64,000 bases of DNA, from the NCBI GenBank assembly GCA_023150615.1, contig JAKLKO010000001.1, positions 295,356 to 359,355 on the forward strand, in the 5' to 3' direction. Below are positions 29,938 to 37,640 of the stretch, piece by piece. Positions within the stretch are counted from its first letter, which is position 1, and each line of letters opens with the position of its first letter. Below the pieces are notes generated by a model, which saw only the letters and a list, made by a program, of their open reading frames with translations, was not told the origin of the DNA and made no database searches. This DNA is from Phycisphaerae bacterium (GTDB lineage Bacteria; Planctomycetota; Phycisphaerae; UBA1845; UTPLA1). The position numbers and the translations under genes are program-made.

Positions 29938-31014
29938 TTATCGTCCGGCGTCATTCGAAGCCGGTGGACGATTCTCCGACGTTCGCAATCGTTCCGCGGC
30001 CCGCGGGTCTTCCTCGACCTGACGCCAGAATTGGACGGCCTCGTCGCTGCGCCCGGCAAGGCGCAGCGCATCGCCCAGCGCAATCAGGCGCGGCGCGGTG
30101 CGCTCCAGTTCGACGGCGAGCCGCAGGTATCGGATTTGTCGATTAAGATCACCGCGTTCCGCGACGGCCTCGGCCACGCGCTCGTACGCCGCTGCGACCT
30201 CGGCGGCGGAAATCGACGGCGAGTGCTTCATCATCTCGCGCAGGCAGGCGAAGAACTCCTCGATTCGCCCGGAGGTGAGGCACAACTCGCCAAGGTAGCG
30301 CAAACAGCGTGGGCGCTTTTTGGGCGAGGCGGCTGAGAGCGCCTGCCGTAACGACTGCTCCGCGAGCGTGCCCTGCCGCGCGTGTTGCCACGCGGCAGCG
30401 GATACGAGCAGCGCATCGACATCCGATGGATTCGATTCGAGCACAAGGCTCGCATGATAGATCGCCGAATCGCTCCCCGCGGCGATGCCGCGGCCGGCGC
30501 GGTCCGACACGCGAATCACGATCCCGTCGGTGCAGCGCTGCCCGACTTCGAGCGGTGCGGCCGCGCGAACCTCGCGCAGCGTGCCGAGCAGCGCGCCGGT
30601 CCCCGCGCATCCGATCGCCCAAGCGCGGTGCAGCTCGGGAGTGTCCAGCCCGAGCCAGAGGGCACGCTCGCACTCCGCGATCGCCGCGGCGTGCAGATCG
30701 ATCGCGTTCGAGACCTCGGCCATACTCAGGCGGAGCGAGGCGTCGGTCGGGTCCAGCGCGATCGCCTCGGCCAGCGCACGGCGGGCATCGCGCCAGCGCT
30801 CCGCGAGCAGATAGGCTCGCGCGCTGAGGCGGTGCACATCCGACGGCGATAGTTCGGACTTCGCGGCGAGAATCGCATCGAGGGCCGCGTCGGCGTCGCC
30901 GGCGGCCAACGCCGCTTCGATCGACGCGCGAACGGAAGTGGCCGCGCCGTTATCGGCACCCGATTTGGGCAGCGCTGGGGTCACCAAGGCGATTGCGAGG
31001 AGCCAGGCGAGCAT
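29938..31014 (-). CDS. Exported TPR-repeat protein
   Basis: A 358-residue protein beginning MLAWLLAIALVTPALPKSGA, a signal peptide. The rest is all-helical, Ala/Arg/Leu-rich, with at least five TPR-like units (AALAAGDADAALDAILAAK; YLLAERWRDARRALAEAIAL; HAAAIAECERALWLG; LVSAAAWQHARQGTLAEQSL; ALGDALRLAGRSDEAVQFW). TPR arrays bind partner proteins. No enzyme domain is visible. I chose ATG at 31014; a TTG at 31071 would put 19 basic residues before the signal peptide. It ends 26 bp after the convergent folD gene and is divergent from the VWA-ExbBD operon, whose regulatory palindrome it may share. Confidence 0.75.
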   Translation of the reverse strand: MLAWLLAIALVTPALPKSGADNGAATSVRASIEAALAAGDADAALDAILAAKSELSPSDVHRLSARAYLLAERWRDARRALAEAIALDPTDASLRLSMAEVSNAIDLHAAAIAECERALWLGLDTPELHRAWAIGCAGTGALLGTLREVRAAAPLEVGQRCTDGIVIRVSDRAGRGIAAGSDSAIYHASLVLESNPSDVDALLVSAAAWQHARQGTLAEQSLRQALSAASPKKRPRCLRYLGELCLTSGRIEEFFACLREMMKHSPSISAAEVAAAYERVAEAVAERGDLNRQIRYLRLAVELERTAPRLIALGDALRLAGRSDEAVQFWRQVEEDPRAAERLRTSENRPPASNDAGR

Positions 31015-31175
31015 GGGACAACGATAACGCCGCGAAACGTCGCGGCGATTCCGCAACCTTACTCCGGTCAAGACGTTAGCCGCTGCTTCCTCCGCGCTGC
31101 GACGACCCCGCCATCATCCTATCGCGTCGCGACCCCACCGGTCAATTTCACAGTCCTGACGCGTGTGTTCCGGAT

Positions 31176-31233: not shown

Positions 31234-32364
31234 ATGCCGAGAAACATGATCGAAGCGAGAACCGTGATTCCGGGGGGCGAGTCTTCGCCGCGGACGGGGC
31301 TTCGCGCGTGGTCACTGCCGTCGCGCATCGGCCGTGCGATCCCGGCCGGCGTACGACGGATGCTGCCGATCCGAGCGCATGGGCGCGTCAGCGCGCTGGC
31401 GATCAGTCTCACGCTTCACGCGTCGGCCATCGCCCTGTTCGGGTTCGTGACATGGAGCCGACCCACCGACCAGCCGCGCGGCCCGGAGTACGCGGTTCAG
31501 ATCGTGTCAGAGCGACGCGAACGGTCCTCGGCAGGAGGCGCGCTCCCGTCGGAGAAGAGCCTCGCGGACCTGGCGCGACTCGCAGTTTCCGCGATGAACT
31601 CGCCCGCGAAGGAGGCAACGCGCCGCGTGGCCGAGCCCTCGCTGGCCCAGATCTCCAACACGTCGCTCGAACCGGCACAATCGGGAATACCGCGCGACGC
31701 CGCCGCAGACATCGGCCGACGGGGAACGCGCGGCTCGGGCGCGGGCGCGGGCCTGACAGGACGCGGCGACACCGGCTCGGGCGTCGGCAACGGCGATGGA
31801 CTCGGCGATCGGGAGCGTGCCGGCGGCAGCGCCGTCGGCGGGCTGTGGGGCGTGGGCGGCGGTCGCGAGGCATCATCGTTCGTGTATGTGCTCGATCGAT
31901 CGGGGTCGATGCAGGACACGTTCTACCTGCTGCAGGACGAGCTGGTCCGCGCGATCGGTTCGCTTGAGCCCTGGCAGAGGTTCAACGTCATCTGGTTCTC
32001 CGAAGGCCCGGTGGAGCAGCTCTCACCGACGCTGCTCGTCGCGACCGAAGCGAACAAGCGGCTGGCGTTCGACGCGGTCCGCCGCATCGTTCCCGGCGGC
32101 CGGACCGAGCCGCTCGACGCGATTCAACGCGGCTTCCGCCTTCAGGCGGACGTGATGTTCCTGCTTTCCGACGGCGACTTTGAAGCACAGAACCGACGCG
32201 TGCTTCAACTCGTCCGCCAAGCCCGGTCGCGGCGCGCGGTGACGATCAACACCATTCTTTTCGTCTACGACACCGGAGGACAGGGCGAGATGATCCTGCG
32301 TTCCATTGCGGAGGCCACGGGCGGCCAATATAAACACGTCACGGAGGACGACCTCGGCGGTTGA
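31234..32364 (+). CDS. VWA-domain protein with a TonB-like membrane segment
   Basis: A 376-residue protein with three parts. Residues about 52-74 form one membrane helix containing AISLTLHASAIAL, where Ser58-x3-His62 matches the Ser16-x3-His20 of TonB that contacts ExbB/ExbD. A Gly/Arg-rich linker (about 160-210) follows. The C-terminal von Willebrand factor A domain (213-376) has the metal site DRSGSM (221-226), the Thr of GGRTEPLDA and FLLSDGDFE. The protein would hang in the periplasm. Together with the ExbB and two ExbD genes just downstream it looks like a Ton-type transmitter that carries a VWA domain instead of the TonB C-terminal domain. The N-terminus before the helix is long (51 residues) and basic; ATG at 31246 is an alternative start. 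Confidence 0.8.
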   Translation: MPRNMIEARTVIPGGESSPRTGLRAWSLPSRIGRAIPAGVRRMLPIRAHGRVSALAISLTLHASAIALFGFVTWSRPTDQPRGPEYAVQIVSERRERSSAGGALPSEKSLADLARLAVSAMNSPAKEATRRVAEPSLAQISNTSLEPAQSGIPRDAAADIGRRGTRGSGAGAGLTGRGDTGSGVGNGDGLGDRERAGGSAVGGLWGVGGGREASSFVYVLDRSGSMQDTFYLLQDELVRAIGSLEPWQRFNVIWFSEGPVEQLSPTLLVATEANKRLAFDAVRRIVPGGRTEPLDAIQRGFRLQADVMFLLSDGDFEAQNRRVLQLVRQARSRRAVTINTILFVYDTGGQGEMILRSIAEATGGQYKHVTEDDLGG

Positions 32365-32376
32365 CATCGACCGAAC

Positions 32377-33210
32377 GTGATTCCCATCGAGATGAGCTGC
32401 AATCGAGTCTTGATCATCGCCTTGTTCAGCATCGTCACCGCGACGCCGGTCGCCGCGCAGACGCCGCCGGCCACATCGGGCGGCTCAGAATCCGCATCGT
32501 TCCTGCGCATCCTCCTCGACGGAGCCGAGGCGCCCGGGGCGATCATCTTTCTGATGTCGATCGCCGCGGTGACGATCAGCATCGAGCAGTTCCGCTCCGT
32601 GCGGCGAAAGGCCCTGATGCCGCCCGTCCTGCTTCAGGAAGCGCAAGAGCTGATCGACAACCGGCGGTACAAAGAGTGCGTCGCGCGACTCCAGGCCCAG
32701 CCGTGCATGTTCTCCGACGTTTTGCTCGCCGGGCTGCGGCAGGGGCGGTTCGGCTTCGACGTGATGCACCGCGCCGCCGAGGAGGCCGCGGCGGTCTGGT
32801 CCAGTCGCCTGTTCCGCCGTGCCGAATACCTGCACGTGCTCGGCAACCTCGGGCCGTTGATGGGCCTGCTCGGGACTGTCCTGGGGATGATCCGCGCGTT
32901 CAGCCAGATGCAGGAGGCGCACGGGGCATACAAGCCGGAGGAACTGGCGGGCGGGATCGCGCTGGCGCTCGTGAACACGTTTCTCGGTCTGATGCTGGCG
33001 ATCATCGCGCTGGGCGCATTCGGCGTGTGTCGCAACCGCGTGGATTCGTTGACGATCGCAACGGCGACGGCGGCGCTGGCGCTGCTGGAGCAGTTCCGAC
33101 CGGCGCCGGCCGGCGCGACGATGGTCTCGCGATCGCCCAAGGTCGAGCCGGACGCGATGCCGCGCTCGGGCGTCACGAACGTGGCGCAACCCGCGAGCGC
33201 GAGCGGCTGA
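32377..33210 (+). CDS. ExbB/TolQ/MotA-family proton channel protein
   Basis: A 277-residue inner-membrane protein that, with ExbD, turns proton flow into mechanical work on a partner. A signal-peptide-like N-terminus (VLIIALFSIVTATPVAAQ) precedes the first core helix (about 50-70, PGAIIFLMSIAAVTISIEQF). A cytoplasmic part follows, then the conserved pair of helices with HVLGNLGPLMGLLGTVLGMI and LALVNTFLGLMLAIIALGAF. These match the TolQ/ExbB signature around helices 2 and 3. GTG at 32377 is 12 bp after the VWA gene's stop; ATG at 32392 is possible. It precedes two ExbD genes. Partner: the VWA/TonB-like protein just upstream. Confidence 0.92.
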   Translation: MIPIEMSCNRVLIIALFSIVTATPVAAQTPPATSGGSESASFLRILLDGAEAPGAIIFLMSIAAVTISIEQFRSVRRKALMPPVLLQEAQELIDNRRYKECVARLQAQPCMFSDVLLAGLRQGRFGFDVMHRAAEEAAAVWSSRLFRRAEYLHVLGNLGPLMGLLGTVLGMIRAFSQMQEAHGAYKPEELAGGIALALVNTFLGLMLAIIALGAFGVCRNRVDSLTIATATAALALLEQFRPAPAGATMVSRSPKVEPDAMPRSGVTNVAQPASASG

Positions 33211-33246
33211 TTCCGCACCGGGCGTCGGCGCACACGCTGAGGCGAC

Positions 33247-33702
33247 GTGACTGACGGATTCCAAATCACCATGACTCGCCGTAGTCCGCCTGCCGTCACC
33301 GTCATGGAACTCAATCTCGCGCCGCTCGTCGACGTGATGATGTGCCTGCTGATCTTCTTCCTGCTGGCGACAAAGATGGTCGAGCGCGAGAGCGTTCACA
33401 TCGACCTGCCGACCGCGGCCGCGGCCCGCGACCTGGAACGCAAGGCGCTCGGCACACGCGTGGTCGTCAACGTCGTCGAGACGAACGGCCAGGCGGAATA
33501 CATCGTGGACGGGCAGGCGCTGGGCCTTCCGGCGCTGGCGGAGCGGCTGGCGATCGAATCCTCGCGAAACCCGGACGTCACGTGCTACCTCCGCGCTGAC
33601 CGCGACGTGGCGTACGAGCGCGTCGAGGCGGTCCTGGTTGAGTGCGCACGGCGGAAGATCACGAACGTGACCTTCGCGGCTGCGCCGTCCACCGGAGGCT
33701 GA
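33247..33702 (+). CDS. ExbD/TolR-family protein (first copy)
   Basis: A 151-residue single-pass inner-membrane protein. The membrane helix (about 20-43) contains NLAPLVDVMMCLLIFFLL, with the Asp that carries protons in ExbD and TolR. The periplasmic part (about 50-145) ends VLVECARRKITNVTFAA, matching the ExbD fold (usual ...ArkaGi.kvgl.t). GAGG lies 5 nt before the GTG at 33247. It is followed after 3 bp by a second ExbD gene, and it follows ExbB by 36 bp. Two ExbD copies could form a heteromeric channel or serve alternative partners. Confidence 0.93.
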   Translation: MTDGFQITMTRRSPPAVTVMELNLAPLVDVMMCLLIFFLLATKMVERESVHIDLPTAAAARDLERKALGTRVVVNVVETNGQAEYIVDGQALGLPALAERLAIESSRNPDVTCYLRADRDVAYERVEAVLVECARRKITNVTFAAAPSTGG

Positions 33703-33705
33703 GCC

Positions 33706-34164
33706 GTGCGCGCCGACGACCGCCGTATGCTCCGAGACATCGTCCCGAACCTCGCCCCGCTCGTGGACGTGGTCATGGTGATTCTGATCTTCTTCATGCT
33801 GGGCACGAGCTTCGCAACGAGCGAGGCGGCGCTCCCGACGCGACTGCCGGCGGATGTCGGTCCGGGAGGCGAGGCGCGCGTCACGATCGTACCCATCGTG
33901 CAGATCGCGCTGCTCGCCGGAACGGACGCAAACGCGTGCCGCATCATCGCCGTCGATCAGGAACTACCGACCGGCGACTTCGAATCGCTCCGTCGATGGC
34001 TGTCGGCCAAGCTCGCGGCCGGGGCCGATGCGAACGGCCGCGTGGCGCTGCTCGCGGACCCGACGGTTCGATACCGGCACGTGATTTCGGCGCTGGACGC
34101 GTGCATTCGCGCCGGATTCAGGAACGTGCAGTTCTCGGTAGACCCGGGACGGTCGGCGGGATAA
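33706..34164 (+). CDS. ExbD/TolR-family protein (second copy)
   Basis: A 152-residue single-pass protein from GTG at 33706. The helix has PNLAPLVDVVMVILIFFMLG with the conserved proton-carrying Asp. The periplasmic domain is richer in Ala and less similar to the first copy (ALPTRLPADVGPGGEARVTI; VISALDACIRAGFRNVQFSV). It is clearly a separate paralogue, not a recent duplicate, since only the membrane segment is close between the two. Three bases separate it from the first copy, so they are translated together. It is followed after 45 bp by the 886-residue TPR protein. Confidence 0.93.
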   Translation: MRADDRRMLRDIVPNLAPLVDVVMVILIFFMLGTSFATSEAALPTRLPADVGPGGEARVTIVPIVQIALLAGTDANACRIIAVDQELPTGDFESLRRWLSAKLAAGADANGRVALLADPTVRYRHVISALDACIRAGFRNVQFSVDPGRSAG

Positions 34165-34209
34165 CGTTCCGTCAGCGCATGCCCGGATGGGCGTGCGAAG
34201 GAGTCTCGG

Positions 34210-36870
34210 ATGGCACGGATGCTGCTGGGGACGATCCTCTTTCTTACGACCGCCGCAAAGGCCGCACCCGACGCGCGCAACACGTCGTCGACGACCGACG
34301 CCCTTCCGCGCGACGTGGCGGTGCTGGCGGAGGGCCTGATCGAACACGGCATGCCCGAGGTGCTCGAATCGCTGCTGTCGAACCGCGCACGGACACATCA
34401 GGTGCTGACGGCGCGGGCGTTCGTGCGTGCGGCGGCGATGCGGACGAGCCCTTCGCAGAAAGACGAGGATCTGGCGAAGGCGGAGGCCGGATATCGCGCG
34501 GCGCTCCAGGCGACCGATTCGGCGACGTGGAATTCGGATCTGAAGCGTCGCTTCGTCGCGGCCCGCTGGCGCGTCGAACTGGCCGACCTGATCCTGCGGC
34601 AACGGTGTGCGGCGGACCTCGACCAACTGGAAGCCACAAGCGGGCTCGCCAAGGCGAGTCCGGCGCTGGTCCAGCGACTCGGCGACGCGCTGTTCGAATA
34701 TCGATCGGCCGATGAGGCGCTGACGGGCCTGCTGGGGACGGCCGAGCGCGAGCCGGACGCGCTGCTCGCGACCGGGATCGGCGAGGCGCTTCCGGCGCTC
34801 GCGCACGCCTGCGCGCTCAATCTCGCGTGGACGCTGACATTTCAAGCCATCGCCGCCGACACCTCGGCCAGCGAGCGCGCGCGGCACATTCAGGACGCGC
34901 TGCGGCGGTTCGACGAGGTGGCGCACCGCACCAACGACCCGGAGCGGAAAATCAACTCACTGATAGGCGCGGCGGTGGCTTTTCGCGTGGCCGGCAAGCC
35001 GGACGACTCGGCCACAATCCTCGAAAGCCTGCTCGGATCGTGCAAGGACGCGGTGACGCGAACACGCGTTCACTTCGAGCTGGGCCGGACGTATCTGGCA
35101 CGACGGGAATTTGCGCGCGCGGTGACGGCCTTCTCGGCGCTGACGCCGTCGACGACCGCACCATTCACCAAGTCGTCCGCCGAGAGTTTTTACGTGCAGC
35201 TCGCTCCGGTGCTTCGGGCCTATGCGCGATTGATGGATGCGCAGCGGTCGCATCCGCCGAACGAGGTCGCGCGGCTTGAGGCGCGCGAGGAACTGCTGGC
35301 GATCCGTCGTCGGGGCGGAGCTTGGCCCGCGATCTGCGATCTCTACCTTGCAGACGCAACGCCGGCGTATCGCCGTGCGTCCGAGTTGGGCCCGGGCGAG
35401 CGGCGCCTGGCGGCACGAAAGCTGATGGCGCAAGAGCGCTACGCGGATGCACTGGTCATCTTGCGGGAATTGCTCGCGGCGGCGACGGAGCGTCCCGGAT
35501 CGAACGAGCACGAGCTTCAACTCGACGTGGCGACGTGCCTGATGCACACGCAGCGGCCGGAAGAGGCGCTCGACAATGCCGAGACGGTAGCGCGGAACGC
35601 CACCGACGCGGACATCGCGGATCGGGCGACGCTGATCGCCCTGGACGCGGCGCGACAGCTGTGCCAGCGAACGGGTTTGGCGAAGGACTACGGACGATTT
35701 GTCGAAGTCGCGGGCCGGGCGCTGGATCGGACGCGAGACCCCACGCGCCGCGATGCGCTGGCAATCGAGGCGGCCCAGGCCGCACGGCGGGCCGGACGCG
35801 ATGCGGACGCCGGCGCGCTCCTTGCGACGGTGTCGAGTTCATCCGGGCTGTCGCTCCACGCGAAAGCAGAGTCGATCCGGTTGAGGCACGAGAAGCTCGT
35901 CCCGACGCTGACCGGCATGAAGCCCGACGACGCCGCGCGCGCGGCGCGCGAACTCGCCGACGAGTGGGAGCGCGTGCTGAACGAGTTGGAACGAAGCGGC
36001 ACGACCGACGCCGCAACCCGCAACGACTACTCGACGGCGACGCTGTGTGCGGCGGAACTGCTCGCGAGCGCCGCGATCCAGCGTCCCGACGCGGCGCTGG
36101 CCCGCCTGTCAAAGGTCGCGGACGGCGACTGGCCGTCGGAGACCCGCGCGAAGGCGACTTGTCTGCGCCTGCGGTGCATGATCGCCCGGAGGGATTTCGT
36201 CGGCGTTCAGCAATGGCTGAGCGCGATCGCGTCGCAAGCGGCAAGCGACGTCGGACTCCTCCTCGCGCTGGGGACGGAACTTGAGAGTCAGTGCCGCGCC
36301 GCGAGTGACGCCGGCCATGAGGAGCTCGCGCGGCAGATTGCCGAATCTTCGCTGTCGGTGATGCGACAGGTTTGCAGCGCGATGGCGCGCGATCCGCAGC
36401 GCTCCGGCGACATCCCCATCGTCGAATTCGGCCTGGCGCGGATGCTGCTCCAATCCGATCACGCCGCTGACGCGCTCGAAATCCTCGACCGCCTGGTCGG
36501 TTTGCATCCGGAAGACCTGAACTTCCGGTGGTACCATGCCCGCGCCAGCGAGCGCGTGGCCCGCGCGACTCATTCGACCCCGGACGCGCCCGTGCGGGCC
36601 GAGCGCGCATGGCGGTCGTTGCTGGAGGACGCGACGCTGCGCGATCGCGATCCGGCGTGCTACTGGGATGCACGCTATCACTGGTTGCAGTGGCAACTGG
36701 AGCGCGGCCGCGCAGAGGAAGTCGCTCGCGGAATCGACGCGGAGCGCGTCTGGTATCCGGAGCTGGGTGGTTCGCCGTGGAAGGATCGACTGCTGAAACT
36801 GGCCGAGCAAGCGCGGGCGCAATCGGCCCGCGACGCATCTCCGGCGGCGTCTGGCTTGCCGCAGCGCTGA
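34210..36870 (+). CDS. Large exported TPR-repeat protein in the ExbBD operon
   Basis: An 886-residue protein with a short signal peptide (MARMLLGTILFLTTAAKAAP). The rest is all-helical and Ala/Arg/Glu-rich with many TPR-like units, for example HIQDALRRFDEVAHRTND, VHFELGRTYLARREFARAV, MAQERYADALVILRELL, CLMHTQRPEEALDNAETVA and MLLQSDHAADALEILDRLV. A C-terminal part reads YWDARYHWLQWQLERG. It is predicted periplasmic and would serve as a scaffold; no enzyme domain is visible. Large TPR proteins often follow ExbB/ExbD genes in planctomycetes. Its 3' end overlaps the next gene by 94 bp. It could be the substrate or brace of the energised VWA complex. Confidence 0.8.
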   Translation: MARMLLGTILFLTTAAKAAPDARNTSSTTDALPRDVAVLAEGLIEHGMPEVLESLLSNRARTHQVLTARAFVRAAAMRTSPSQKDEDLAKAEAGYRAALQATDSATWNSDLKRRFVAARWRVELADLILRQRCAADLDQLEATSGLAKASPALVQRLGDALFEYRSADEALTGLLGTAEREPDALLATGIGEALPALAHACALNLAWTLTFQAIAADTSASERARHIQDALRRFDEVAHRTNDPERKINSLIGAAVAFRVAGKPDDSATILESLLGSCKDAVTRTRVHFELGRTYLARREFARAVTAFSALTPSTTAPFTKSSAESFYVQLAPVLRAYARLMDAQRSHPPNEVARLEAREELLAIRRRGGAWPAICDLYLADATPAYRRASELGPGERRLAARKLMAQERYADALVILRELLAAATERPGSNEHELQLDVATCLMHTQRPEEALDNAETVARNATDADIADRATLIALDAARQLCQRTGLAKDYGRFVEVAGRALDRTRDPTRRDALAIEAAQAARRAGRDADAGALLATVSSSSGLSLHAKAESIRLRHEKLVPTLTGMKPDDAARAARELADEWERVLNELERSGTTDAATRNDYSTATLCAAELLASAAIQRPDAALARLSKVADGDWPSETRAKATCLRLRCMIARRDFVGVQQWLSAIASQAASDVGLLLALGTELESQCRAASDAGHEELARQIAESSLSVMRQVCSAMARDPQRSGDIPIVEFGLARMLLQSDHAADALEILDRLVGLHPEDLNFRWYHARASERVARATHSTPDAPVRAERAWRSLLEDATLRDRDPACYWDARYHWLQWQLERGRAEEVARGIDAERVWYPELGGSPWKDRLLKLAEQARAQSARDASPAASGLPQR

Positions 36871-37640
36871 TTTGCATCGGCCCGCGCGCCGCCGTCGCGG
36901 CGATGCTGAACGTCGCGGCGACCCACGAGACCGCGCCGTCGACCCCGTTCGATCCCGCCGGCGGCGAGTCGCCTCTGGCCCGCGTGCAGGACCAGGTCTT
37001 CACCTTCGACGACGAAGCGTTCTACTGGCTCTGCCGCCGCATCCGGCACTTCGATCCGCCCGCGGTGTTCCAGATCGGGGCGTCCGAATCCTGCCTGCCG
37101 TGGAAGTTCCTGCTGGAACGCCCGAGCGACTACCGCGGCGACCTCGTGACGGTGGAGGGCATCCTCCGCAGTCGACATTCGTTCCGCATCGATTCCCCCG
37201 CCCGCGGTGACCTCGGCACGCTGCATCAGGCCGAGCTGTCGGACGTCGAAACCAACTCGTTCTGCACCGTCATCGTGACGGAATCGCCCGAGTCGATCCC
37301 GATTCGCGCCCGCGTGCGGGCGAAGGGCTACTTCCTCAAGGTCCGCGCCTTCCGGGATTCGGAGGATCGGACCGGCTTCGCGCCGTTGCTGATCGCACGG
37401 TCGCTGATCAGCGTCGCGCCGCCCGTCTCGCTGCGGGAGGCGATGTCACGCGATCGATGGAACTGGTGGGACCCGCGACGGCCGACGTCGCTGGCCGGAT
37501 GGATCGCCGTCCTTCTCGCCGTGCTCGTGCTCGCGCGAGGGCTGCGCCGCACGCAGCGCCGATTCCCGGACCGGCGCGAGGCCGCAGCCGATTCCGCCGA
37601 CGACTTCGAGTGGATGGAGCGCCCCCCGCCGGCCGCCTGA
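36777..37640 (+). CDS. Membrane protein of unknown function at the end of the ExbBD operon
   Basis: A 287-residue protein with a hydrophobic segment near the N-terminus (GGVWLAAALICIG, ending in AVAA, signal-like), a soluble part of about 200 residues, and a C-terminal helix (SLAGWIAVLLAVLVLARGL) with a basic/acidic tail. The soluble part contains YRGDLVTVEGILRSRHSF and PESIPIRARVRAKGYFLKV, beta-rich and reminiscent of an OB fold, but I do not recognise the family. GTG at 36777 has GGTGG 6 nt upstream and keeps the signal segment; this makes a 94-bp overlap with the TPR gene. An ATG at 36903 would drop the signal. It is probably co-translated with the upstream gene. Confidence 0.6.
   Translation: MEGSTAETGRASAGAIGPRRISGGVWLAAALICIGPRAAVAAMLNVAATHETAPSTPFDPAGGESPLARVQDQVFTFDDEAFYWLCRRIRHFDPPAVFQIGASESCLPWKFLLERPSDYRGDLVTVEGILRSRHSFRIDSPARGDLGTLHQAELSDVETNSFCTVIVTESPESIPIRARVRAKGYFLKVRAFRDSEDRTGFAPLLIARSLISVAPPVSLREAMSRDRWNWWDPRRPTSLAGWIAVLLAVLVLARGLRRTQRRFPDRREAAADSADDFEWMERPPPAA

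Follow-up and report, generated by a model that had tools for sequence, protein, structure and literature searches.

A VWA protein as the putative transducer of a Ton/Tol-type motor operon in a Phycisphaerae bacterium

Six genes at positions 31234-37640 of the window, i.e. the whole stretch of 64,000 nucleotides analyzed here, probably encode a proton-driven motor of the Ton/Tol type in which a VWA protein serves as the transducer, most plausibly for a task in the envelope or at the outer membrane; we estimate the probability of this reading at about 75%. The open reading frames, read directly, all lie on the + strand in the order VWA, ExbB, ExbD1, ExbD2, TPR and a sixth gene, reproducing the order, strand and position claimed in the initial annotation, with intergenic gaps of 12 bases (VWA-ExbB), 36 bases (ExbB-ExbD1), 3 bases (ExbD1-ExbD2) and 45 bases (ExbD2-TPR). 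Promoter and terminator scans gave no signal above that of shuffled sequence. An ORF of 297 aa at 32361 was rejected as a wrong-frame overlap of ExbB without a Pfam match. The host genome has a size of 4.1 Mb and is 99.6% complete. Given the conserved linkage of the genes, the Ser-x3-His motif, the metal site and the proton aspartates, together with the finding of no other Ton/Tol parts, the operon most likely specifies a Ton-like motor whose effector is the VWA protein and which substitutes for Ton/Tol.

To compare the operon across genomes, 61 homologues from relatives and 80 loci from 84,980 scanned species genomes were combined into a set of 114 distinct VWA loci; nearly all relatives compared are MAGs of Phycisphaerae/Planctomycetota. 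ExbB is encoded on the same strand in 93 of the 114 loci, the contig ends within 3 kb downstream in 7 more, and 14 are without ExbB, so the anticipated linkage of the VWA gene to the motor genes in related genomes is borne out. Exactly two ExbDs accompany 89 of the 93 ExbB-linked VWA genes, a TPR match was found in 89 loci of the distinct set, and almost every motor-linked locus has the TPR gene downstream. Plasmids yielded no VWA homologue.

The first gene (31234-32364, +) encodes a protein of 376 aa resembling a force transducer, as judged from Pfam, homologue alignment, profile and an AlphaFold2 model. Its layout comprises a cytoplasmic N-terminus, a single TM helix at aa 47-75 (31372-31458, +; alignment and model), a disordered Gly-rich linker and a VWA domain at aa 200-374 (31831-32355, +). 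The Pfam VWA match is marginal, with E = 5e-5 at the cut-off; a profile from 26 homologues matches the VWA domain of inter-alpha-inhibitor H4 with E = 2.8e-12, and the predicted structure combines the helix at 47-75 and a disordered linker with a VWA fold at about 200-374, the closest structures being the VWA domains of inter-alpha-inhibitor heavy chains, calcium-channel alpha-2/delta and CMG2. The MIDAS residues are D221 (conserved in 114/114 loci), S223 (113/114), S225 (114/114), T291 (103/114, with a residue other than Thr in the remaining 11) and D313 (114/114), and Pfam gave no match to PF03544, the TonB C-terminal domain. Both early proposals for this protein, that it has one membrane helix and that a VWA domain with an intact metal site takes the place of the TonB tip at its periplasmic end, are consistent with these data. 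The metal site is kept equally in motor-linked and unlinked proteins, and thus characterizes the VWA domain as such without proving that a ligand is pulled. A motor-box-like stretch, YAVQIV (aa 86-91; 31489-31506, +), recognized by its pattern only, lies 24 residues past His62, compared with 25 for ISVTMV of TonB and 28 for IDAVMV of TolA past their respective histidines; many VWA homologues show a hydrophobic pattern at this distance, and the single-chain AlphaFold2 model has no strand there.

The strongest tie between the VWA protein and the motor is the pair Ser58 (codon 31405-31407, +) and His62 (codon 31417-31419, +) in the TM helix. In the first homologue set, for proteins covering the region and with an alignment not anchored on the motif, both residues are present in 59 of 59 sequences, compared with conservation of at most ~56% at the remaining positions of the helix. 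The conservation of the motif in homologues, on which the initial annotation had relied, extends to all 91 VWA proteins that are linked to the motor and have an intact N-terminus, whereas only 7 of the 13 VWA relatives that are not motor-linked carry it (Fisher p = 1.1e-6, a value that serves as a guide only because the sequences are related). Presence of the motif therefore tracks the motor rather than the VWA domain itself. Among 655 unrelated hydrophobic windows taken from these loci, 4 contained the motif, a background frequency of 0.6%. The Leu and the second Ser of the SHLS sequence are conserved less strictly than Ser and His.

The motor is encoded by one ExbB/TolQ homologue (32377-33210, +; 277 aa, with an N-terminal signal-like segment, a GTG start and an in-frame ATG at 32392) and two ExbD/TolR homologues (33247-33702, +, with proton Asp29; and 33706-34164, +, with proton Asp21), with Pfam E-values of 2.8e-25 for MotA_ExbB and 3.4e-25 and 1.6e-16 for ExbD. 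The two ExbDs form separate clades across families, with 6 of 178 sequences misplaced and a support of 0.996, and the proton Asp is kept in 89 of 89 ExbD1 and 89 of 89 ExbD2 sequences, in agreement with the proposed set of one ExbB and two ExbDs retaining their proton Asp. Because each clade is distinct and has kept its own Asp, the sequences favour a fixed heterodimer of the two ExbDs. Among the family ExbBs, the equivalents of the pore residues Thr145 and Thr178 are kept in 93/93 and that of the docking residue Ser28 in 90/93. In the E. coli cryo-EM structures, Ser16/His20 of TonB contact Ser34/Trp38 of ExbB, and Ser18/His22 of TolA contact Ser28/Trp32 of TolQ (PMC12215075). The docking Trp of ExbB/TolQ is replaced by Ile, Val or Leu in most of the family, the window protein having Val, and the equivalent of Pro187 is Ile in the window ExbB; with both residues replaced, docking cannot match that of Ton/Tol exactly.

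Searches of the host genome point to a motor without a counterpart in the cell. PF01618 matched the operon ExbB and a MotA protein only, and the ExbD matches were confined to the two operon genes. The second PF01618 match was dismissed as a second Ton motor, being a flagellar MotA beside MotB; the two genes, at L091:6781-8694 of the same genome, suggest a flagellar motor. TonB_C, Plug and TolB_N gave no match in this genome by Pfam search, an absence that holds at Pfam sensitivity, whereas control genomes gave matches. Judged from these searches, the VWA operon appears to be the cell's only Ton/Tol-type motor. An ordinary Ton system, in which the VWA protein would energize TonB-dependent receptors, could draw on the presence of the Ser-x3-His helix and the ExbB/ExbD motor, but TonB_C was not found in 29 of 31 genomes nor Plug in 22 of 31, the host genome included in both counts, and we regard this explanation as highly improbable. 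An earlier survey found TonB and receptors in only four planctomycetes (PMC3422733).

Transducers of this kind have been described before. A study that appeared in June 2025 (PMC12204202; Mol Biol Evol 2025, msaf138) reports vWA force transducers of the PVC group identified by sequence and structure prediction, with an SHLS helix, a disordered linker and a vWA end, encoded adjacent to tolQ, two heterologous tolR genes and the gene of a TPR protein; AF3 models therein dock the transducer helix through the conserved His. As the same gene set and His-docked models are presented there, the suggestion of a new transmission mode in the initial annotation was pre-empted. The operon analyzed here is, by its sequence features, a member of the first family of vWA force transducers as that study defines it: the protein shares the S/H helix, a disordered linker of ~100 residues and the C-terminal vWA fold, and the neighbours are likewise a tolQ-like gene, two different tolR-like genes and a TPR gene; Planctomycetes are among the groups in which that family is described. 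There the vWA gene often follows the TPR and motor genes, whereas here it comes first, and the OB-fold sixth gene and a divergent TPR gene are not among the features covered by the accessible text. The second family of that study, TPH-vWA with TolQ only, also has a membrane-tethered vWA beside a TolQ homologue, but is described with an Asp in the helix, without SHLS residues and without TolR, in contrast to the helix found here, which has S/H and no Asp, and to the two ExbDs beside it. The E. coli TonB-ExbBD and TolA-TolQR systems share with the operon the motor proteins, the S-x3-H helix, the proton Asp, the pore Thr pair and the ExbB docking Ser; they differ in having the TonB/TolA C-terminal domain, in lacking a pair of different ExbDs and in retaining the docking Trp, and neither a TonB receptor nor TolB was found in the host genome. 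What is added beyond the 2025 paper is the contrast between linked and unlinked proteins, the status as sole motor, the replacement of the ExbB Trp and the family-restricted OB-fold protein; with the gene set already reported, what is gained is this evidence, together with a system that is single-copy and well defined.

In the mechanism that we propose, ExbB would assemble as the pentameric channel, with the two different ExbDs pairing into a heterodimeric axle; these stoichiometries are taken from their homologues. Through Ser58/His62, the helix of the VWA protein would dock against the exterior of ExbB, the long flexible linker that follows would span the periplasm, and the VWA domain with its intact metal site would constitute the gripping end that replaces the TonB C-terminal domain, such that proton flow via ExbB/ExbD could put the linker under tension. 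The VWA end most likely has the co-encoded TPR protein as its direct partner, or an item of the outer membrane or wall that the TPR protein holds, a pairing that may be likened to CpoB and TolB-Pal working with TolA; the OB-fold membrane protein would be a lineage-specific accessory. Alternatively, the motor could act on the TPR protein, with the VWA protein regulating or chaperoning the complex instead of serving as a pulling arm. TPR proteins also accompany paralogous ExbB operons without VWA and may thus be the motor's own partner, but those operons bear another Ser-x3-His transducer-like protein in the place of VWA, which points to the Ser-x3-His protein as the exchangeable effector, and the long disordered linker predicted for the VWA protein would suit a tether; a regulatory role is accordingly rated quite unlikely.

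As the sole Ton/Tol-type motor found in the genome, and given that almost all genomes of the order (93 of 101) have a VWA homologue, the VWA-bearing motor probably performs outer-membrane or envelope upkeep that is elsewhere done by Ton or Tol. A motor for gliding or surface adhesion, in which the VWA domain would act like an adhesin and the TPR protein would provide the scaffold, has a precedent in AglRQS of Myxococcus xanthus, which has the same composition of one ExbB-like and two ExbD-like subunits and is proposed to pull through the TonB-like GltG/GltJ (PMC9389320), the likeness here concerning the composition of motor subunits; a gliding role is also suggested for vWA transducers by the authors of PMC12204202. 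The near-universal occurrence looks like housekeeping rather than motility, however, and the genome already has a MotA/MotB pair, which leaves a gliding function unlikely. If the transducer model is right, a common bacterial group without detectable Ton/Tol still drives force across the envelope, the gripping domain is unrelated to TonB, and motor plus linker form a general module that takes different heads. A further-reaching version, in which the VWA motor has replaced Ton and Tol throughout the order as the sole trans-envelope puller and grips via the VWA metal site, is tentative and in our estimate rather doubtful; if true, the metal site would catch and release its target, a way of working that no ExbB/ExbD motor is known to use.

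The exported protein of 886 aa and the membrane protein annotated behind the ExbDs are both present, the latter combining an OB fold with a TM helix. The TPR protein (34210-36870, +; Pfam TPR_19, 7.8e-7) ends in a conserved motif resembling ERxWxPDLGGPPW in the family consensus. An N-terminal hydrophobic core and few further membrane segments, seen in 79 of 86 scored TPR proteins, suggest that it is probably periplasmic or associated with the outer membrane. Its NCBIfam match to PorW/SprE (E = 3e-4), far below the cut-off, was taken as generic TPR similarity. The sixth gene as listed starts at 36528, which puts its first 343 bases inside the TPR gene; although the start codon is uncertain, a start at GTG 36777 (36777-37640, +) appears likelier, which still overlaps the TPR gene and would provide a signal peptide, followed by a periplasmic OB fold, a C-terminal TM helix and a short cytoplasmic tail. 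In the structural model, the OB fold is nearest to SSB and the anticodon-binding domains of AspRS, and the tail after the TM helix carries an invariant DFxW. Within the window's family, 12 operons contain the gene, compared with 0 of 46 loci first fetched from other families.

Upstream of the operon, a divergent gene (29938-31071, −) encodes an exported TPR protein whose homologues adjoin the operon in six relatives within the window's family, and is a possible accessory part. Divergent genes for exported helical or TPR-like proteins were seen upstream of the VWA gene more widely, one type in these six relatives and another in 40 loci (e.g. L144:5981-7489). In families other than that of the window, an extra exported TPR gene is often present, usually between VWA and ExbB (L046:6554-8194, −, and many more); common ancestry of this gene with the one at 29938-31071 was considered and found unsupported. 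Conserved opposite-strand ORFs that formed a large cluster were discarded as antisense shadows, because the example of this cluster sits opposite ExbD and TPR genes. Two records stand out among the loci: L123 is a single contig with two VWA genes, three ExbDs and one ExbB side by side, and L137, titled Alphaproteobacteria, bears a Phycisphaerae-type operon and is probably a mislabelled MAG.

Some relatives contain a second operon, absent from the host genome, with the order TPR, ExbB, one ExbD and a giant PD40-propeller protein (L097:7967-11221, +; L092, L095, L098, L105 and L107). In the giant protein, the propeller is followed by a Ser-x3-His helix (6/6) and then by a motor-box-like strand, an arrangement that looks like a second type of non-TonB transducer. 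Some of the giant proteins also have a carboxypeptidase-regulatory-like or cyclase-like domain, and in L097 an M56 peptidase gene lies upstream of the operon.
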